Positions 1 to 7,097 of a stretch of DNA of 7,097 bases are shown one piece after another. The notes below the pieces were generated by a model. The model was not told the origin of the DNA. It saw only the letters and a program-made list of their open reading frames with translations, and searched no databases. Numbering within the stretch: the stretch's first letter is position 1; each line of letters opens with the position of its first letter. The translations under genes were made by a program, and so were the position numbers. Origin of the DNA: Dehalococcoidia bacterium (GTDB lineage: Bacteria > Chloroflexota > Dehalococcoidia > SZUA-161); the NCBI GenBank assembly GCA_030619685.1, contig JAUXAX010000081.1, forward strand, positions 1 to 7,097, read 5' to 3'.

Positions 1-1059
1 AAGGTGGTCGCCGAAGCTGAGCGCAAAGGCCTCCAGATCATAGAGGAAGCAGAAAAGAAGGCTCAGCCCGAGGTGAGAAAGGTAGTCGCCGAAGCCGAGC
101 AGACCGGACGACAGATTATCGAGGAAGCAAGAAAGAAGGCCGAGGCTGATACAAACAGGATAATTGCTGAAGCTGACCAGAAAGGCATCCAGACCATAGA
201 GGAAGCAAGGAGAAGGGCTGAACCTGAGGCAAACAAGATAGTCGCCGAAGCTGAGCAGAAAGGCCGCCAGACCACAGAGGAAGCAAGGAAGAAGGCTGAA
301 CCTGAGGCAAATAGGATAGTCGCCGAAGCTGAGCAGAAAGGCCGCCAGATTATTGAGGAGGCAAGAAACAAAGCCAGGCCCGAGGCAAACAAGGTGGTCG
401 CCGAAGCTGAGCGCAAAGGCCTCCAGATCATAGAGGAAGCAGAAAAGAAGGCTCAGCCCGAGGTGAGAAAGGTAGTCGCCGAAGCCGAACAGACCGGGCG
501 CCAGATTATCGAGGAAGCAAGAAAGAAGGCCGAGGCTGATGCAAGCAGGATAATCGCTGAAGCTGACCAGAAAGGCCGCCAGATTATTGAGGAGGCAAGA
601 AACAAAGCCAGGCCCGAGGCAAACAAGATAGTCGCCGAAGCTGAGCCGAAAGGCCGCCAGACCTTAGAGAAAGCAGAAAAGAAGCCTCAGCCCGAGGTGA
701 GAAAGGTAGTCGCCGAAGCCGAGCAGAAAGGCCGCCAGATCATAGAGGAAGCAACAGAAAAGGCCAAGCAGACCGCTCGCGAGATCATAGACGAGGCAAC
801 CAAGAAAGCTGAGGCCGAGGCATCTAAGATTGTTTCCCAAGCTGAACAGAAAGGCAGCCAGGTCATAGAGGAAGCAAGTAAGGAGGCTGAGCCCGGAGTA
901 GGTAGGATAATCGCTCAAGCCGAGCAGAAAGGCAGCCAAATCATAGAGGAAGCAATGAAGAAGGCTGAGGAGCACGCAGGTCAGATAGTCACTGAAGCTG
1001 AACGGAAAGGCGGCCAGATTATTCAGGAGGCAGAGGAGAAGGCCGGCGCTCAGACAATC
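1..1059 (+). repeat. In-frame 78-bp tandem repeat array (26-residue coiled-coil units)
   Basis: Thirteen 78-bp units start at 1, 79, 157, 235, 313, 391, 469, 547, 625, 703, 826, 904 and 982; a 45-bp short unit lies at 781-825. The array continues out of the window to the left. Units are not equally diverged: 1-98 and 391-488 are identical base for base, and 112-150 equals 502-540, so a block of five units (390 bp) appears duplicated. Bases 333-390 equal 567-624, a three-unit offset. Units after 703 are more divergent. The short unit aligns with residues 12-26 of the consensus, so it lacks exactly 11 residues. Confidence 0.93.
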
Positions 1060-1599
1060 AGCCTGTTCAGCGAATATGAGCAGAGAGCTCGCAAGATTGT
1101 AGAAGAGGCGGAGAGAATAGCTGCTGCCCCTGCCGCGGAGAGACCTGGGCAGATAATTCGAGCTCTCCAGGAAAAGGCAGCCCTAGAGGCAGAAGCTAAA
1201 GGGGTAGAAGCTAAAGCCGCTCAGCAAAAGCGGGTGGAGCTAGTAATAATACCACCGATCAATTTTGCCCAAATGACGAGATTGCGGATATCCTTAGAGC
1301 AGTTCCCTGATGTGCGCGTCCTGGCAACAGGTGGCTCTCTCGAAGGCGGTGCCACCATTTCCATCTTCATGGAGGAGCCAATACCGCTAGCTGACGAGCT
1401 AAGAAAGATGGGCGCTATAGAGGAAGCAGTAGAAGAGGAACTGCTCGATTCTCACCCCTTGGGCGATTTTCTGAAGCAGGTAATGCCCGCGCGTTCCTCA
1501 AAACGACGGGAGATACAAAGGATCCTGGTCGTGCTGAAGAGAGACGATCATAGTCCCGAAAATGGAGCCTCAAACATGCCGAGGGAAGAGCCTATATGA
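1..1599 (+). CDS. Long repetitive coiled-coil protein with a C-terminal alpha/beta domain, 5'-truncated by the window
   Basis: The frame is open from base 1 to a TGA at 1597-1599; 532 residues are visible and the real start lies upstream. Residues 1-353 are near-perfect 26-residue repeats rich in Ala, Glu, Lys and Gln, of the type (K/R)(I/V)(V/I)AEAEQKGRQIIEEA followed by a charged, sometimes Pro-containing, linker. They should form a long helix or coiled coil reminiscent of ATP-synthase b/E/H-type stalk helices. A less regular helical part (about 354-411) follows. From about 412 there is a compact predicted strand-helix-strand-strand-helix segment: VELVIIPP, a helix, VRVLATGG, ATISIFMEEP, then a helix with LADELRKMG. 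The tail (about 490-532) is basic, then polar. No signal peptide or membrane segment is visible. I do not recognise a function; a structural or scaffolding role is only a guess. It is convergent with the metabolic operon and probably unrelated to it. Confidence 0.85.
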   Translation, partial: KVVAEAERKGLQIIEEAEKKAQPEVRKVVAEAEQTGRQIIEEARKKAEADTNRIIAEADQKGIQTIEEARRRAEPEANKIVAEAEQKGRQTTEEARKKAEPEANRIVAEAEQKGRQIIEEARNKARPEANKVVAEAERKGLQIIEEAEKKAQPEVRKVVAEAEQTGRQIIEEARKKAEADASRIIAEADQKGRQIIEEARNKARPEANKIVAEAEPKGRQTLEKAEKKPQPEVRKVVAEAEQKGRQIIEEATEKAKQTAREIIDEATKKAEAEASKIVSQAEQKGSQVIEEASKEAEPGVGRIIAQAEQKGSQIIEEAMKKAEEHAGQIVTEAERKGGQIIQEAEEKAGAQTISLFSEYEQRARKIVEEAERIAAAPAAERPGQIIRALQEKAALEAEAKGVEAKAAQQKRVELVIIPPINFAQMTRLRISLEQFPDVRVLATGGSLEGGATISIFMEEPIPLADELRKMGAIEEAVEEELLDSHPLGDFLKQVMPARSSKRREIQRILVVLKRDDHSPENGASNMPREEPI

Positions 1600-1667
1600 A
1601 ATGCATTAAATAGTTGCGCGTGAACCGAAGTCAAGCACCAAACTCGAAGCGCGAAATCCTGAACGAA

Positions 1668-1691
1668 CCCCAAGGGCGGTTGCCCTTGGGG
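1668..1691. terminator. Bidirectional rho-independent-like terminator between convergent genes
   Basis: A perfect 10-bp inverted repeat, CCCCAAGGGC (1668-1677) and GCCCTTGGGG (1682-1691), surrounds a GGTT loop. On the + strand it is followed by the T-rich GTTTATTAT, and on the minus strand by TTCGTTC. It lies 69 bp after the stop of the coiled-coil gene and 6 bp after the stop of metF, so it is well placed to end both transcripts. The U tracts are short and imperfect, so termination strength is uncertain. Confidence 0.75.
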
Positions 1692-1696
1692 GTTTA

Positions 1697-2593
1697 TTAT
1701 GCGCGGCTGTTTATTCCGGCGGCCGCCAGGATATCTGGAACAACCTCTTCCCTGCCGATTGCCATTATGTGCACTCCATCACAGATCGAGTCCTTTCTCA
1801 GTGCAGCGATCATGCGGCCGGCAATCTCAATGCCTTTGTTGAGTGCTTCACCCTTGGGCGCGCTCGCCAGTTCATCAATCAGGTTCTGGGGGACGAAGAT
1901 GCCGGGCACGTTTTCGTTCATATACTTCGCCATCCTGGCTGATAGGAGCAAGACTACCCCCGCCAGAATCTTGACGGGGAATTGGCGGGCATACTCCATG
2001 AACTTGCTGAAGTTATCCAGGTCGTAGATCGCCTGCGTCTGGATGAATTCGGCTCCGGCCTCGATCTTCTTCTCGAACTTGATGAGCTGAGGTTCTATTG
2101 GGTTTGCCGCGGGGGTAACAATGGCCCCGGCACAGAACTCAACCGCTCCATCGAGGTCGTTTCCTCCCAGGTCCTTTCCCGATTCCATTTGCCTGATTGC
2201 CCTCAGGAGTTGGACTGAGTCGAGCTCGAAGACGCCTTTAGCCTCCTTGTGGTCTCCGACCGGTATTGCGTCACCTGTAAGGCAGAGGACATTCCCTATG
2301 CCCCTTGTATAGGCCAGGAGGAGTTCGGCTTGAAGAGCCATTTGGTTGCGATCGCGACAGGTCATTTGCAGTATGGGCTCGCCACCTCGCTCCTTGATCT
2401 CCAGGCAGCCGCCGATAGAGGGGAAGCGCATCACCGAGCTCTGGTGATCGGTAACGTTGATCGCGTCCACCTTATCCTTGAGTATGTCGATATGGTGACG
2501 CATATTGTCGATGTTGGTGCCCTTCGGCGGGCCGATCTCGCTGGTTATTACGAACTCGCCGGAGTTGAGGGCTTCTCTAAAGCTCCGCGCCAT
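1697..2593 (-). CDS. metF: Methylenetetrahydrofolate reductase, MetF family
   Basis: Encodes 298 residues, the usual length for a bacterial single-domain MetF. The enzyme reduces 5,10-methylene-THF to 5-methyl-THF on an FMN/FAD-containing TIM barrel in the cytoplasm, the last redox step of the Wood-Ljungdahl methyl branch. Visible family motifs: SEIGPPKG (Glu19, equivalent to the E. coli catalytic Glu28), NVLCLTGD (Asp108, equivalent to Asp120), FIQTQAIYD (Gln187, near the E. coli Gln183 position) and the late block with SARMAKYM and NVPGIFVP. I chose ATG at 2593 because AGGAGGAGG lies 6 nt upstream; a GTG at 2611 in frame would overlap metV and put this RBS inside the coding region. It starts 14 nt after the metV stop, so the two are co-transcribed and probably form a MetFV complex, in which MetF alone often does not use NADH. 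It is the last gene before the terminator. Confidence 0.95.
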   Translation of the reverse strand: MARSFREALNSGEFVITSEIGPPKGTNIDNMRHHIDILKDKVDAINVTDHQSSVMRFPSIGGCLEIKERGGEPILQMTCRDRNQMALQAELLLAYTRGIGNVLCLTGDAIPVGDHKEAKGVFELDSVQLLRAIRQMESGKDLGGNDLDGAVEFCAGAIVTPAANPIEPQLIKFEKKIEAGAEFIQTQAIYDLDNFSKFMEYARQFPVKILAGVVLLLSARMAKYMNENVPGIFVPQNLIDELASAPKGEALNKGIEIAGRMIAALRKDSICDGVHIMAIGREEVVPDILAAAGINSRA

Positions 2594-2599
2594 TTTCTT

Positions 2600-2608
2600 C
2601 CTCCTCCT
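2600..2608 (-). promoter_or_regulatory. Ribosome binding site of metF
   Basis: AGGAGGAGG on the minus strand overlaps the last base of the metV TGA stop and ends 6 nt before ATG 2593. It decides the metF start and suggests translational coupling to metV. Confidence 0.8.
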
Positions 2609-3252
2609 CACAAGATTCTGGTCACTCGTGGCCGGGTTATCACCTGGGAATTCTTGAGAGGTTGGTACTTTCTCATCAGGTCGAGCCTGCCCTGCTCCTT
2701 GAGTCGCTGATAGATAAGCGTCCAGGCACAGTCTCGTTCTATGTCGATTTCACATTTGCCATTGTTGGTACCGCCACAGGGCCCATTCAGCAATCCCTTA
2801 TGGCACGCTGTAATGGGGCAGATGCCCGCAGTATAGCCCAAGACACAGTGACCGCACTGGTCACAAACCTCGTGGAAAAAGCCCGGCCCGTCCTCTACGC
2901 CCATGAAGAGAGTATCCAGAGCGGGGATGACCGGCTTACTGTTATAGGAACCCACTCTCTGCACTCCCAGAGCGCAGGACATCACCAGAAGGCAGTCCGC
3001 ACCCTGAATGGCACCCTCGTTTTCCTCCAAGGATGCTTCGGTCATCTCATCGCAGGCGGTGGGGATGACTGTCCAGCCCGTGACCATCTTGCCCAGGCCT
3101 TGCAGGCGCTCCTTCATGTCCAGAACCTCATCTCTTCCACCGGTCTTGGTCATGGTGGCGCAAGTGCCACAGCCAATGATGTATACTCTTTCCAGCCCCT
3201 CAAGTTGCTGCTCGATCTCTTCGAGAGACTTTTGCCTGGTAATGGATTTCAT
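2608..3252 (-). CDS. metV: MetV-like methylenetetrahydrofolate reductase C-terminal/zinc and Fe-S protein
   Basis: Encodes 214 residues of the MetV family (MTHFR_C-type domain), the partner of MetF in acetogens and related anaerobes. It connects the MetF flavin to an external electron donor. An N-terminal Rossmann-like half contains GCGTCATMTKTGGR (Cys28, Cys31), Cys67 and a strand LLVMSCALGVQ (Cys93). The C-terminal half is Cys-rich: CDQCGHC (130, 133, 136), GICPITAC (145, 150), LLNGPCGG (159), GKC (167) and Cys175. This pattern is typical of the family and suits Zn and/or [4Fe-4S] sites. I start at ATG 3252, which has GGAGG 6 nt upstream; a TTG at 3285 would extend into the AT-rich spacer with no family resemblance. 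It directly precedes metF. The electron donor is not evident from this gene; the upstream NuoF/GltD fusion is a candidate. Confidence 0.9.
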   Translation of the reverse strand: MKSITRQKSLEEIEQQLEGLERVYIIGCGTCATMTKTGGRDEVLDMKERLQGLGKMVTGWTVIPTACDEMTEASLEENEGAIQGADCLLVMSCALGVQRVGSYNSKPVIPALDTLFMGVEDGPGFFHEVCDQCGHCVLGYTAGICPITACHKGLLNGPCGGTNNGKCEIDIERDCAWTLIYQRLKEQGRLDLMRKYQPLKNSQVITRPRVTRIL

Positions 3253-3255
3253 ACT

Positions 3256-3264
3256 CCACCTCCC
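3256..3264 (-). promoter_or_regulatory. Ribosome binding site of metV
   Basis: GGGAGGTGG on the minus strand contains GGAGG at 3259-3263, 6 nt before ATG 3252. It supports this start over the in-frame TTG at 3285. Confidence 0.8.
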
Positions 3265-3396
3265 GACAAGAAATTCAAATGTCAAAATTCAAAGTGCAAA
3301 ATGGGTAACCAAGAACGCATGGAATCCTAATTTTGAATTTTGATTTGTGATTTTCGCTCATTTATTTTTGCTTTTTGCCTTTTGCCTTTTGCTTTA
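3265..3396. repeat. AT-rich repeat-bearing spacer inside the operon
   Basis: The gap between the fusion gene and metV is much more AT-rich than its surroundings and has no credible ORF. It holds an 11-bp inverted repeat, CAAAATTCAAA at 3283-3293 and TTTGAATTTTG at 3332-3342. The pair extends after a 2-nt bulge by CAAAT (3276-3280) with ATTTG (3343-3347). It also holds four near-tandem TTTTGC/TTTTTGCC units at 3366-3392. It could be a degenerate small dispersed repeat, an RNA processing hairpin or a site of internal transcription control. No convincing -35/-10 pair was found. Confidence 0.6.
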
Positions 3397-6300
3397 TTAT
3401 GTCTCCAGGTCGCATCTCAGGCATCGCCTAGCTTCCTGCCTCGCCACCTCCTCCGAGAAGCCCCGTTCGACCTCTTCGAAGCTACGTTTCCTTTCCCTGG
3501 CAGGAACCCTTGGCATTTCCTGCCTGGGCTGGATTTCCCAGGATTCCTCGACCTCTTGACCGCCTGTTTCTCCGTTGCCCCCCCGCCTTAGATCATACAT
3601 CTCCACACGTGAGGTATCTTCCCTGAGATACTTGTCTATTGCTATAGCTGCTCTCCTGCCGGCGGCTATAGCTTCTATGACCATCCCAGGGCCGGTGACG
3701 AAGTCTCCCCCGGCGAAGACTCCCGGGACATTGGTAGACAACCTGTTGCTGTCAACAACCAGGGTCTCCCATCTGGTGCGTTCTAGTGCGCTGTCGCGAG
3801 GAAGAAACGAAAGGTCAGGAGCCTGACCTACGGCAGCGATGACGGTGTCGGCCTCGACAAAGAACTCGGAGCCAGAGATGGGCATAGGGCGGCGGCGCCC
3901 GCTGGCATCAGGCTCGCCCAACTGCATACGGATGCACTGTAGGCCTGTTGCCTTCCAGTTGTCGCTCTCTATCCGCGTGGGACTGACAAGGAAATTGATT
4001 TGGATGCCCTCAGCGACTGCCTCGTCGTACTCCACCTCAGTCACCGGCATCTCGCCTAGCGACCGCCTGTAGTAGATGTTCACCTCCTCGGCACCGAGGC
4101 GAAGGGCAGTGCGAGCAGCATCAAACGCTACATTTCCGCCCCCGATGACGGCCACCCGGCGCCCGACTCTTACCTGTTTGCCCACTTTGACATCGCGCAG
4201 GAACCTCAGCCCGTAGTGGAAGTCTTCCACGTCCTCTAGTTCGCCGGGTATGCCTATGCGCTGGCTTCTCTGAGCGCCAGCAGCGATAAAGACCGCTTCA
4301 AAGCCGTCTTTCCTCAGATCTTCTACGGTGAAACTCACATCGATGGGCATGTTGTACCTTATGTCGATGCCACGCTTGGCGATATAGTCTATCTCACTTT
4401 GAATAACCTCCCTGGGCAAGCGAAACTGCGGTATTGCTACCGCAAGCATGCCTCCCCCCACTGGAAGGGCTTCGAAGACTGTAATCGGATAGCCCATCTG
4501 AGCCAGGAAGTAGGCGCAGCTCAGCCCGGTGGGTCCAGCTCCGACCACAGCTACTCTCTGGTCTTGAGTTTGAGGGAATGGTTCTGGTTCGGGCAATTCA
4601 TCCACATGGTCAAAATACCAGTCGGCGGCAAACCGCTTCAGCTCCCTTATGGCCACTGACTCGTCGAGTTCCCCGCGGCGGCAGCGTGTCTCGCAGGGAT
4701 GATGGCAGATACGGCCGCAGATGGCGGGGAATGGATTTCGCTCCCTGATGGTTTCAATGGCCTCCACATATTCACCCTCGGCGATGTGAGCCACATACCT
4801 GGGTATGTTGATACCCACAGGACATGTATGCTGGCAGGGGGATATCATCAAAGCATCGCATACCGCAGCCGGGCATTTCTTCTCCCTTATGTGAGCTTCA
4901 TACTCATCCTGGAAGTACTTGATAGTGGTGAGCACGGGGTTGGGGCAGGTTTGGCCAAGGCCGCAAAGCGAGCACTCCTTTACCGTGCTAGCTATGGCGA
5001 GCAAGGCGTCAACGTCATTATCACGCCCTTTGCCCTGGGTGATCCTGGTCAGGATCTCCAGCATCTGCTTGGTGCCCAGACGACAGGGGACACATTTCCC
5101 GCATGACTCAGTCTGAGTGAAACTGAGGAAATATCTGGCTATCTCTACCATGCAGGTGCCATCGTCCAGCACTACCATGCCGCCGGAGCCCATGATCGAT
5201 CCCAGTTGAGCCAGAGAATCGTACTCCACCGGGACGTCAAGGAACTGGGCGGGAATGCATCCGCCCGAGGGGCCGCCGGTCTGCACCGCTTTAAACCGCT
5301 TGCCGCGGGGGACACCGCCTCCGATATCGAAGATGATAGAGTCCAGGGAGGTGCCCATAGGGACTTCTACCAAGCCGCTGTTGGCAACCTTTCCCGTGAG
5401 GGCGAACACGGCTGTCCCCTTGCTTTTCTCGGTGCCCAGGCTGGCGAACCATTTGGCTCCTTTGTCGATGATAACCGGTACGGTGGCCAGTGTCTTCACA
5501 TTGTTAATGATGGTGGGCTTTCCATCCAAGCCCGATTGTGCTGGGAAGGGAGGGCGGGGACGAGGCATTCCGCGCCGGCTTTCGATTGAGGCTATCAAAG
5601 CTGTCTCTTCGCCACAGACGAAAGCTCCAGCGCCCTCTTTGACATGCACCACAAACTCAAAGCCTGAGCCGAGGATATTCATCCCCAGGAACCCTCTCTC
5701 CTGTGCTTGCTCTAGGGCGATCCTGAATCGACTCACTGCAAGTGGATACTCAGCGCGGACATAGACATAGCCCTCAGTAGCCCCTATAGCGTATCCGGCG
5801 ATGGTCAACCCTTCGATAATAGCGTGGGGATCAGCCTCAAGGATGGAGCGATCCATGAAGGCCCCGGGGTCGCCCTCGTCGGCATTGCAGATGACGTATT
5901 TCTGCTCACCAGGGGCATTGTGGCAGAACTCCCACTTGCGGGCTGCGGGGAAGCCAGCACCACCCCTTCCCCGAAGGCCAGACTTTGCGATCTCTTCAAT
6001 GACTTCTTGAGGTGTCATCTTAAGAAGAGCTTTCTCTAGCGCCTGATACCCGCCGCGGGCAATATAATCGTCAATTCTCTCAGGGTTAATGTGTCCGCAG
6101 TTGCGCAGGATAATGCGCTGCTGTCCCGCGTAGAATTTTATGTCTGAATAGAGCGGTATGGCTTTCCCAGTCACAGGGTCACGGTAGAAGAGACGCTCCA
6201 CCGGCTTGCCATCGCGAAGATGGGAACTCACAATCTCCGGGGCATCCTCAGCTTCGACATGGGTATAAAAGATGCCGTCGGGCTCGACCACCACATTAGG

Positions 6301-6459
6301 GCCCTGCTCGCAAAAGCCGTGACACCCGGTAAAGTCCACCTTGGCGCCTTTCACACCGTTCCGCTCCACCTCAGCCTCGAGCGCCTCGTAGACAGCACCG
6401 GACCTAGCCGAAAAGCAACCTGTTCCCTGACAAACAAAAACGGTGCGATGGTTTTGCAT
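3397..6459 (-). CDS. NuoF/HndC-like NADH-binding flavoprotein fused to a GltD/NfnB-like FAD-NAD(P)H oxidoreductase
   Basis: A 1020-residue fusion. Residues 1-90 are a thioredoxin-like [2Fe-2S] domain (Cys10, 15, 46, 50). Residues about 110-520 are a NuoF core with the FMN/NADH motif LRGRGGAGFP (162-171), NADEGDPGAFMDR (192-204), GEETALIASIE (283-293) and a [4Fe-4S] site CGKCVPC (453, 456, 459) plus Cys499. After CPAAVC (529-534) comes a GltD-type N-terminal Fe-S domain, CQHTCPVGINIP (542, 546) and CGRICHHPCETRC (581, 585, 589, 593). An FAD Rossmann motif VAVVGAGPTG (636-645), an NADPH-type site GGGNVAFDAAR with YRRS (to about 800) and GGDFVTGPGMVIEAIAAG (918-935) follow. The protein ends in RCLRC (Cys1013, 1016). 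HndC proteins usually end in a 2[4Fe-4S] ferredoxin domain, here replaced by the GltD module. It likely passes electrons between NAD(P)H and the formate dehydrogenase. Start: ATG 6459, one base after the nuoE-like stop; a TTG at 6486 is less likely. Confidence 0.92.
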   Translation of the reverse strand: MQNHRTVFVCQGTGCFSARSGAVYEALEAEVERNGVKGAKVDFTGCHGFCEQGPNVVVEPDGIFYTHVEAEDAPEIVSSHLRDGKPVERLFYRDPVTGKAIPLYSDIKFYAGQQRIILRNCGHINPERIDDYIARGGYQALEKALLKMTPQEVIEEIAKSGLRGRGGAGFPAARKWEFCHNAPGEQKYVICNADEGDPGAFMDRSILEADPHAIIEGLTIAGYAIGATEGYVYVRAEYPLAVSRFRIALEQAQERGFLGMNILGSGFEFVVHVKEGAGAFVCGEETALIASIESRRGMPRPRPPFPAQSGLDGKPTIINNVKTLATVPVIIDKGAKWFASLGTEKSKGTAVFALTGKVANSGLVEVPMGTSLDSIIFDIGGGVPRGKRFKAVQTGGPSGGCIPAQFLDVPVEYDSLAQLGSIMGSGGMVVLDDGTCMVEIARYFLSFTQTESCGKCVPCRLGTKQMLEILTRITQGKGRDNDVDALLAIASTVKECSLCGLGQTCPNPVLTTIKYFQDEYEAHIREKKCPAAVCDALMISPCQHTCPVGINIPRYVAHIAEGEYVEAIETIRERNPFPAICGRICHHPCETRCRRGELDESVAIRELKRFAADWYFDHVDELPEPEPFPQTQDQRVAVVGAGPTGLSCAYFLAQMGYPITVFEALPVGGGMLAVAIPQFRLPREVIQSEIDYIAKRGIDIRYNMPIDVSFTVEDLRKDGFEAVFIAAGAQRSQRIGIPGELEDVEDFHYGLRFLRDVKVGKQVRVGRRVAVIGGGNVAFDAARTALRLGAEEVNIYYRRSLGEMPVTEVEYDEAVAEGIQINFLVSPTRIESDNWKATGLQCIRMQLGEPDASGRRRPMPISGSEFFVEADTVIAAVGQAPDLSFLPRDSALERTRWETLVVDSNRLSTNVPGVFAGGDFVTGPGMVIEAIAAGRRAAIAIDKYLREDTSRVEMYDLRRGGNGETGGQEVEESWEIQPRQEMPRVPARERKRSFEEVERGFSEEVARQEARRCLRCDLET

Positions 6460-6460
6460 G

Positions 6461-6949
6461 CTATCCCCCGCCCTTCCTGTTTGCAAAGAGTTGAGCTACC
6501 TTCTTGGGATTCATGGTGCCATGGGTGTCCTTTCCCACGACTATATTGGGTGCCAGGGCGCAAACGCCTATGCAGGCGACGGTCTCCAGGGTGTACTCGT
6601 AGTCGGGGGTGGTCTGACCTTCTTCCAGGTCAAGATGCTGCTTAACTAATTTCAGTATGGTCTTTCCACCGCGCACATGGCATGCCGTACCACGACACAC
6701 TCGGACAATCCTTTTCCCCCGGGGCGTAGTATAGAGCTGTTCGTAAAAGGTGATCACCCCCTGTACCTGAGAGGGAAATAGTTCGAAGGCTCGCGCTATG
6801 GGATTGATAGCCTCGGGAGGAATATACCCCAACTCCTGCTGGATCTCCTGCAGCAGAGGAATCAAGGGCCATTTCCGGTCTTGATAGCGAGCTATGATCT
6901 CGTCTATCTGTTTCAGGTCAGGTTTGGCTATTTCTCGACGCTTATCCAC
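6461..6949 (-). CDS. nuoE: NuoE/HndA-like thioredoxin-fold [2Fe-2S] subunit
   Basis: Encodes 162 residues, the usual size for NuoE/HndA/HydC proteins. An N-terminal helical region (about 1-75, with LLQEIQQELGYIPPEAI and VQGVITFYEQL) is followed by the thioredoxin-like domain. The [2Fe-2S] ligands are in VCRGTACHVRG (Cys85, Cys90) and ACIGVC (Cys126, Cys130), followed by APNIVV. The family transfers electrons next to the NuoF flavin subunit in complex I, NAD(P)-linked hydrogenases and NAD(P)-linked formate dehydrogenases. The position between an FDH end and a NuoF-type gene, without other complex I genes, points to the soluble FDH-type complex. The symbol is a family name only. The start is GTG 6949, 4 nt after the upstream stop; no ATG gives a full-length family member. 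The RBS is weak (AAAGGG), consistent with coupling to the upstream gene. Confidence 0.93.
   Translation of the reverse strand: MDKRREIAKPDLKQIDEIIARYQDRKWPLIPLLQEIQQELGYIPPEAINPIARAFELFPSQVQGVITFYEQLYTTPRGKRIVRVCRGTACHVRGGKTILKLVKQHLDLEEGQTTPDYEYTLETVACIGVCALAPNIVVGKDTHGTMNPKKVAQLFANRKGGG
6464..6478 (-). promoter_or_regulatory. Ribosome binding site of the NuoF/GltD fusion gene
   Basis: AGGAAGGGCGGGGGA on the minus strand lies within the last codons of the preceding gene and ends 4 nt before ATG 6459. The upstream TAG stop and this ATG are separated by one base, which implies translational coupling of the two subunits. Confidence 0.6.
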
Positions 6950-6953
6950 GAGG

Positions 6954-7097
6954 CTAGACCCTTTCTACCTTTACGGCACATGCTTTGAGTGCGGGGGTTT
7001 TTGCCCGTGGATCCAGGGCGGTGCCAAATAGCTGATTGACGGGAGTTGAGGGGAAAGAAATGGGCATGAAAATTATTCCTTCAGGCAGCGTGTCAGT
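6954..7097 (-). CDS. fdhA: Molybdopterin oxidoreductase C-terminus, probably formate dehydrogenase alpha subunit (partial)
   Basis: Only the last 47 codons are in the window; the gene continues past 7097 and the stop is TAG at 6954-6956. The translation reads LPEGIIFMPISFPSTPVNQL, then FGTALDPRAKTPALKACAVKVERV. This matches the end of the molydopterin dinucleotide-binding domain in cytoplasmic FdhA/FdhF-type enzymes, where a PEG..FMP.HF....N.LT...LDP.AK.PE.K.CAV.VE pattern is common. These Mo/W-bisPGD enzymes interconvert CO2 and formate. The active site (Cys or selenocysteine) and the N-terminal Fe-S domains lie outside, so substrate specificity cannot be read here. A NuoG-like or other related oxidoreductase remains possible, but the metV-metF context favours formate dehydrogenase. 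It is the upstream gene of the operon as seen here. Confidence 0.8.
   Translation of the reverse strand, partial: TDTLPEGIIFMPISFPSTPVNQLFGTALDPRAKTPALKACAVKVERV

Follow-up and report, generated by a model that had tools for sequence, protein, structure and literature searches.

The DNA considered here, a 7,097-nt stretch of a Dehalococcoidia bacterium (phylum Chloroflexota; contig JAUXAX010000081.1 of assembly GCA_030619685.1, positions 1 to 7,097; hereafter the window), carries an operon on its minus strand in which the C terminus of a formate dehydrogenase (FDH)-family protein, a NuoE-like protein, a NuoF::GltD fusion, metV, and metF follow one another with gaps of 4, 1, 144, and 14 nt. 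The same order and gaps had been given in an initial annotation made from the sequence alone, and coordinates as well as Pfam and NCBIfam matches agree with it. The operon is real and strongly conserved. We predict, with a probability of about 0.66, that it encodes a MetVF-type methylenetetrahydrofolate (methylene-THF) reductase equipped with a dedicated NAD(P)H module, in which the FDH-like subunit would act as a wire for electrons. Judged by its relatives, the subunit annotated as an FDH is very probably not an FDH. The features are as follows.

1697..2593, minus strand: metF, 298 residues; ATG start at 2593 (alternative GTG at 2611); PF02219 (methylenetetrahydrofolate reductase, MTHFR), 3.9e-39
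2608..3252, minus strand: metV, 214 residues; ATG start at 3252; PF12225, 4.7e-35
3253..3396, minus strand: AT-rich spacer of 144 nt between the fusion gene and metV
3397..6459, minus strand: NuoF::GltD fusion, 1020 residues; ATG start at 6459; Pfam and NCBIfam give NuoF plus GltD
3397..4845, minus strand: GltD/NfnB-like half, fusion residues 539–1020; PF14691, 1.1e-25; PF07992, 1.6e-35
4846..6459, minus strand: NuoF/BfuB-like half, fusion residues 1–538; best solved relative 7t2r_B
4945..4977, minus strand: motif ECSLCGLGQTC (fusion residues 495–505), in which extra Cys496 and Cys505 flank the B1 ligand Cys499
6461..6949, minus strand: nuoE-like (BfuC/HydC/StnA-like) [2Fe-2S] subunit; GTG start; PF01257, 2.2e-46, and NuoE NCBIfam models
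6954..7097, minus strand: FDH-like (NuoG-like) large subunit, C-terminal 47 residues; open frame cut by the contig end

Conservation of the NuoF-MetV gene order

A search with an alignment of 20 near-relative MetV sequences as query gave 219 loci encoding a MetV relative, and the best 80, ranked by MetV similarity, were read; counts from these 80 describe the near-relative MetV group. In 76 of them, the gene immediately upstream of metV, on the same strand, is of the NuoF type; the other four begin at contig ends, 0, 2, 42, and 121 nt upstream of metV. The spacing between the two genes has a median of 39 nt (range 10–462) and does not exceed 168 nt in 75 of the 76. Where at least 7 kb of upstream sequence is available, the NuoF-type gene is present in 40/40 loci (without GltD in L060 and L066), and both NuoE and the FDH-like gene are present in 38/40, the two exceptions being L005 and L032. 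A sample of 294 genomes from the class of G001 holds 34 MetV sites of at least 65% identity in 33 genomes, with a match to the fusion adjoining 29 of the 34. The remaining five sites involve an N run (G001), contig ends (G172, G173), and, in G166 and G237 (equivalent to L071 and L073), pieces of the fusion cut by contig ends. The initial annotation had named separation of metVF from the module in close relatives as the observation that would speak against it; neither the 80 loci nor the genome sample contains a clear case, and all doubtful sites come down to contig ends or N runs.

Two candidates for such a split, L005 and L032, were rejected, as the breaks fall at runs of 100 N and the second part of the fusion stops at a run of N as well. 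Both are chromosome-titled records in which the run (9350–9449 in L005, 9372–9471 in L032) splits the operon and the halves are placed far apart. The two ends at the break in L032 share 353 nt at 97% identity; the shared stretch in L005 is 284 nt and only 80% identical, and a second, different copy is possible there.

The arrangement extends to a second MetV group, 51–61% identical to the MetV of the window, in which a NuoF-type gene is directly upstream at 14 of the 15 sites fetched; the fifteenth (L133) starts 323 nt from a contig end. (The class sample holds 16 MetV sites below 65% identity, G028:C53 being the one outside the set fetched.) Twelve of these sites have a short NuoF of ~400 residues, and of the 12, NuoE is present in 11 and a protein of 223–260 residues resembling the N-terminal Fe-S part of FdhA/NuoG also in 11. 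The one such protein that was scanned, from L119, has no molybdopterin domain. MetF directly follows MetV at some sites of the group and comes after a kinase-like or similar gene in L126, L129, and L130. Next to the NuoF-MetV set in L119 and L132 are genes that, from their sizes, may encode subunits of carbon monoxide dehydrogenase/acetyl-CoA synthase.

Other variants separate the elements further. L124 has an FdhA with a Cys-His pair, NuoE, a NuoF with a ferredoxin domain, and MetV in a single run (gaps of 11, 18, and 33 nt), with MetF on the opposite strand and MetV still with NuoF. A GltD-type fusion and MetV are 1 nt apart in L123, where MetF is again on the other strand. NuoF proteins of 541–567 residues that lack GltD precede metVF in L047, L060, and L066, and a NuoF without a GltD match precedes MetV in L200–L205 (three of these MetVs repeat those of L047, L060, and L066). 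All of these arrangements have a MetV behind a NuoF, but the presence of an intact FDH, of GltD, and even of a MetF next to MetV can vary.

More distant MetVs, at 61 sites, have no NuoF next upstream within the available sequence, which amounts to at most 1.5 kb in loci L089–L118 and L170–L229. Of these sites, 28 have an MvhD match of at least 41% and three a weaker one; the GltD-type match at L224 coincides with an HdrA/GltD-type protein. A MetV tree of 108 rows with a midpoint root, which includes at most 33 of the 80-locus rows (25 random and eight named), has one branch (support 100/99) with 51 rows labeled NuoF-linked plus L133 on one side and the MvhD-linked rows on the other. All L001–L080 rows carry the NuoF-linked label, including L016, which like L133 starts at a contig end, so that the partner of its MetV is outside the sequence. 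The 51–61% rows are not a separate clade; the window group nests among them, and the MetV of the window falls among NuoF-linked MetVs. The protein matches Pfam PF12225 and no NCBIfam model, and 12 cysteines are invariant across the 20-sequence alignment A3. Partner type goes with MetV group.

In L134 and L135, a MetF 72–73% identical to that of the window is found inside Hdr/MvhD clusters, accompanied by a MetV that is only 45–48% identical. MetF therefore seems to move between partner types, and MetV to follow the partner. A further MetV group, in L135 and L136, is near a conserved pair of proteins of 519 residues (the MetV neighbor) and ~300 residues. Within the class sample, 100 genomes have a MetV match, and 57 of these carry two to four such matches, with different partners where neighborhoods were read.

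These patterns bear on the alternative that the operon holds two co-regulated, independent enzymes, an Stn/Nfn-like NAD(P)H-ferredoxin transhydrogenase (NuoE, NuoF::GltD, and the NuoG-like subunit) and a MetVF that depends on ferredoxin. None of the Stn-type building blocks is missing. In Sporomusa ovata, stnABC is downstream of metVF and encodes a separate transhydrogenase (PMC7483475), and the MetVF of C. ljungdahlii uses ferredoxin (PMC8760232). However, MetV (match E ≤1e-60) adjoins 28 of the 30 fusions in the class sample that have at least 65% identity and reach the GltD end, compared with only 2 of 49 fusions below 65%. The second MetV group, moreover, mostly keeps the NuoF-MetV pair without GltD and without a full-length NuoG, and partner type tracks MetV group. 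We consider two independent enzymes an unlikely explanation, if one to be kept in mind.

The FDH-like large subunit

The large subunit was read in relatives; the window covers only its last 47 residues and ends before the active-site position. The copies in L002 and L022 keep the FDH-family domains PF04879, PF00384, and PF01568 (Fe4S4, molybdopterin, and dinucleotide-binding). At the column of the molybdenum ligand, none of the 49 copies beside metVF has Cys or Sec: Tyr is found in 43, and Ser, Asp, Thr, Glu, His, and Val in one each, and the column that follows holds His in a single module copy (L070). Among the 120 nearest homologues the ligand column reads Tyr in 111, Cys in 5, His in 3, and Phe in 1, and the next column is never His, which leaves the Cys-His pair in 0/120. 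At the place where module copies mostly read DN.SRLY, intact-site FDHs of that class have DHCARL(C or TGA)H, and alignment to the solved FDH 9wxb_B gives the same ligand replacement. The Fe4S4 cysteines checked are kept in all 120 homologues. The 17 of the 120 that carry a source name are all called formate dehydrogenase.

Genomes that contain the module mostly have another FDH. Of the 33 genomes with a MetV of at least 65% identity, 31 entered the FDH search (G001 and G173 were omitted), and the best FDH-like locus was read in 30 (all but G194). An intact-site FDH, with "intact" referring to the motif only (Cys-His or TGA-His), was found outside the module in 24/31. The other six genomes gave a degenerate copy, five times on a contig with MetV or the fusion and in G037 on another contig. 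Downstream of metVF in L071 and L075 is an FDH gene with TGA, accompanied by NuoE and a HydB-like gene. Because the site is missing in the module copies and an intact FDH is present elsewhere in these 24 genomes, the module is unlikely to be a CO2-reducing enzyme.

The initial annotation had taken the neighbor for an FDH and proposed that NuoE and the fusion serve both it and MetFV. The first of these does not agree with the catalytic site absent from the relatives' copies. The second survives in part: the unit is a standing genomic neighbor of MetV, but the coupling to CO2 reduction is not supported, given the same counts and the intact FDHs elsewhere. The full form of that proposal, in which exergonic methylene-THF reduction drives CO2 to formate through a NuoE/fusion unit shared by an active FDH and MetFV, exists as a gene arrangement in one relative, L124, which has all four proteins in one run. 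With NADPH as donor, the reaction would also be favorable (about −21 kJ for two electron pairs with the potentials given below; with two NADH in vivo, about +18 kJ, it would not). In view of a ligand column without Cys or Sec in every module copy, of homologues without a Cys-His pair, and of the 24 genomes with an intact site outside the module, we regard this scheme as highly improbable for the operon in the window.

It is also conceivable that the subunit still has a molybdenum or tungsten cofactor and, together with MetVF as its redox partner, converts some substrate that is not formate. The recognizable molybdopterin, Fe4S4, and dinucleotide-binding domains in L002 and L022, the retained Fe4S4 cysteines, and the prevalence of Tyr at the ligand column (111/120 homologues and 43/49 module copies) could be read in this way. 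However, six other module copies have six different residues in that column, and the second MetV group mostly does without a whole molybdopterin domain. We find such an activity very unlikely. The subunit would instead be a structural and electron-wiring component rather than a CO2 reductase, comparable to NuoG or to the NuoG-like part of StnC.

The NuoF::GltD fusion and the predicted electron route

The NuoF half contains an N-terminal [2Fe-2S] site (Cys10, Cys15, Cys46, Cys50), a flavin mononucleotide (FMN)/NADH domain, and the [4Fe-4S] cluster B1 (Cys453, Cys456, Cys459, Cys499). It also contains a B2-type site composed of Cys436, Thr474, His523, Cys529, and Cys534, which align with Cys438, Cys476, His525, Cys531, and Cys536 of 7t2r_B, subunit B of a NiFe-hydrogenase named bifurcating; the B2 ligands are taken from PMC9304861. 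The cysteines and the histidine of this half are conserved in 118–120 of 120 homologues or, where only 114 or 119 sequences extend over the position, in all of them, with Cys436, His523, Cys529, and Cys534 in 120/120. Thr474 is invariant in 36 aligned sequences, and Thr at the position of Cys476 is described as common in the Bfu family (PMC9304861). The GltD half consists of a double [4Fe-4S] domain, a flavin adenine dinucleotide (FAD) domain, and an NADPH-type nucleotide site, and its Cys542, Cys546, Cys581, Cys585, Cys589, and Cys593 are present in 120/120 homologues. By family resemblance only, this half would prefer NADPH.

Two extra cysteines, Cys496 and Cys505, are found in 118/120 and 114/120 homologues, respectively, and in the minimal NuoF of L047 and L066. 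They are absent from the three HydB-like proteins, the two other (FDH-linked) fusions, and the one short NuoF protein compared. It is possible that they mark an additional cluster, a disulfide, or a docking site.

In the scheme that we propose, the FMN of the NuoF half would be the site for NADH and the FAD of the GltD half the site for NADPH. Electrons would pass by way of NuoE and the clusters of the FDH-like subunit to MetV and on to the MetF flavin. That the proteins form a physical complex, the route of the electrons, and the role of NAD(P)H as donor are inferred. More speculatively, the bifurcation-type NuoF may split electrons between methylene-THF and a low-potential acceptor, which could be NADP+ by way of GltD or ferredoxin. 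The ferredoxin domain is replaced by GltD; the low-potential branch, if any, would therefore end at NADP+. One tentative and rather doubtful elaboration is a bifurcating methylene-THF reductase built on a Bfu core, with methylene-THF as a third substrate beyond those in PMC9304861. The NuoF half would split electrons at FMN; one pair would reach methylene-THF by way of the NuoG-like wire derived from an FDH and then MetV, and the second would cross the B2 site to GltD, giving NADPH instead of reduced ferredoxin. The former FDH subunit would have been kept as wiring after loss of its active site, with L124 as an arrangement in which this site is still intact.

For the energetics we used potentials of −270 mV for NADH and −370 mV for NADPH in vivo, −432 mV for CO2/formate, −200 mV for methylene-THF, and −450 mV for ferredoxin (PMC13040438, PMC8760232). 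With these values, electron transfer from two NADH to methylene-THF and NADP+ comes to about +6 kJ and from two NADPH to methylene-THF and ferredoxin to about −17 kJ.

Several observations weigh against a MetVF reductase with its own NAD(P)H module. Gene order alone is no proof of a complex, and the MetVF of C. ljungdahlii is reported to work with reduced ferredoxin and not with NAD(P)H (PMC8760232). The AlphaFold2 model of the fusion (mean predicted local distance difference test score 72.7) is poor at the junction of the two halves, with scores below 50 at residues 445–456, 498–505, and 527–545. With regard to the large subunit, the best-scoring solved relatives, 8rqz_C and 9gzq_A (YjgC), have Cys followed by Gln; the missing His alone is thus indecisive, and the case rests on the Cys, which five of the 120 homologues do have at the ligand column. 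The C-terminal tail in the window is identical to module copies at 45/47 positions for L001, 38/46 for L002 and L003, 26/47 for L018, and 24/47 for L047, compared with 19/42, 22/46, and 23/46 for three FDHs that keep Cys-His, and is hardly closer to the distant module copies than to these intact-site enzymes.

Related systems, surroundings of the operon, and implications

The closest published counterpart comes from a paper by Yi et al. (2021). That paper describes NuoEFG homologues upstream of metFV in Dethiosulfatarculus sandiegensis and widely in Desulfobacterales and Chloroflexi, names them the X type of MTHFR, and guesses at bifurcation for a system that it did not study (PMC8515935). The MetFV of this type belong to group III of that paper. 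The association of NuoEFG with metFV is therefore itself already in print. The operon in the window has NuoE/F/G-type genes directly upstream of metV-metF as well, but its NuoF is fused to a GltD (NADPH) half, and the NuoG role would be taken by a full-length FDH-like protein without a catalytic site. The best reading of the operon is as a variant of the X type. What would be new is that a GltD half stands where a bifurcation-type NuoF has its ferredoxin domain, and that the FDH-like subunit is non-catalytic. In the open-licence PMC literature searched, in the parts available, we found no mention of a GltD fusion next to metVF, of the absence of the catalytic site, or of a comparison with the Bfu B2 site.

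Two other families share much of the module. Like Bfu (HydABC-type) enzymes (PMC9304861), it has the N-terminal [2Fe-2S] site, the B1 and B2 ligands including the His described as a mark of bifurcating members, and NuoE; however, the C-terminal ferredoxin domain (B3/B4) of BfuB is replaced by GltD (PF14691). The terms "methylene" and "metF" do not occur in the main text of PMC9304861. The Stn/Nfn-Bfu transhydrogenase of S. ovata (PMC7483475, PMC10482914) likewise combines NuoE, NuoF, GltD, and an FDH-like NuoG part, with genes beside metVF, but its GltD is fused to the NuoG-like part (StnC) and StnB keeps the C-terminal clusters, whereas here GltD is fused to NuoF. StnC showed no activity when tested for formate oxidation (PMC7483475), a parallel to the FDH-like subunit described here, and the Stn structure places bifurcation in StnAB (PMC10482914).

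The HdrABC-MvhD-MetVF (6S) type of Moorella and Sporomusa also joins MetVF to a multisubunit, possibly bifurcating electron module, but one made of Hdr/MvhD and not NuoEF, and MvhD-adjacent MetVs fall outside the NuoF-linked group. No hdrA or mvhD is found upstream of metV in the window, where the upstream gene is NuoF::GltD. The window also differs from the RnfC2-MetVF (3S) type in that it has no adjacent RnfC2 (MetV plus RnfC domains); the sole rnfC match, a weak one, is to the NuoF half. FDH-linked NuoF::GltD paralogues in L129 and L138 have the same fusion domain make-up and the same large-subunit family; their FdhA, however, keeps Cys-His, the fusions are 62% and 60% identical to that of the window, and no MetV is directly adjacent. 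The statement in PMC5736913 that metV occurs in no other known Chloroflexi clade is contradicted by the present loci.

Among 34 loci with ~10 kb of upstream sequence, 24 also have, by similarity, a histidine kinase, a LuxR-type response regulator, and a double-receiver protein. In L018 (509–3484), where the domains were read, and in similar loci, the kinase is a GAF histidine kinase and the regulators head the operon, which points to redox or ligand control of the module. With respect to distribution, L042, titled Deltaproteobacteria, was dropped as a case of transfer, as it is G257, inside the same class sample as the Dehalococcoidia genomes. L024 (Thermodesulfobacteriota) is the sole genome with a close MetV among 23 of its class, which may reflect transfer or a binning error. 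A close MetV occurs in 6 of 113 genomes of the class of G296 (an Ammonifex record).

The spacer between the fusion gene and metV (3253–3396) contains no terminator-like or promoter-like site in a consensus scan, its predicted fold is not better than that of shuffled sequences (z +1.16), and a search for its motif in 229 loci gave 0 matches. A plasmid search gave distant matches only. At 1–1599 on the plus strand, the window contains an open frame of 532 residues, mostly 26-residue coiled-coil repeats with a nonrepeat C-terminal part; 78-bp tandem units occupy 1–754 in ~9.7 copies. The best NCBIfam match of this frame, ATP synthase archaeal subunit H, is probably a coiled-coil resemblance.

Overall, the operon represents a compact, expressible set in which an electron module is genetically fixed to MetV. 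Which donor MetVF-type methylene-THF reductases use, and how the exergonic step is exploited, is a question of acetogenesis (PMC8760232, PMC9430772) to which such a set relates. As the Cys-His pair is absent from all 120 nearest homologues, large-subunit genes of this kind should not be taken for the CO2-reducing step in genome-based pathway reconstruction, and their annotation as FDH calls for correction.

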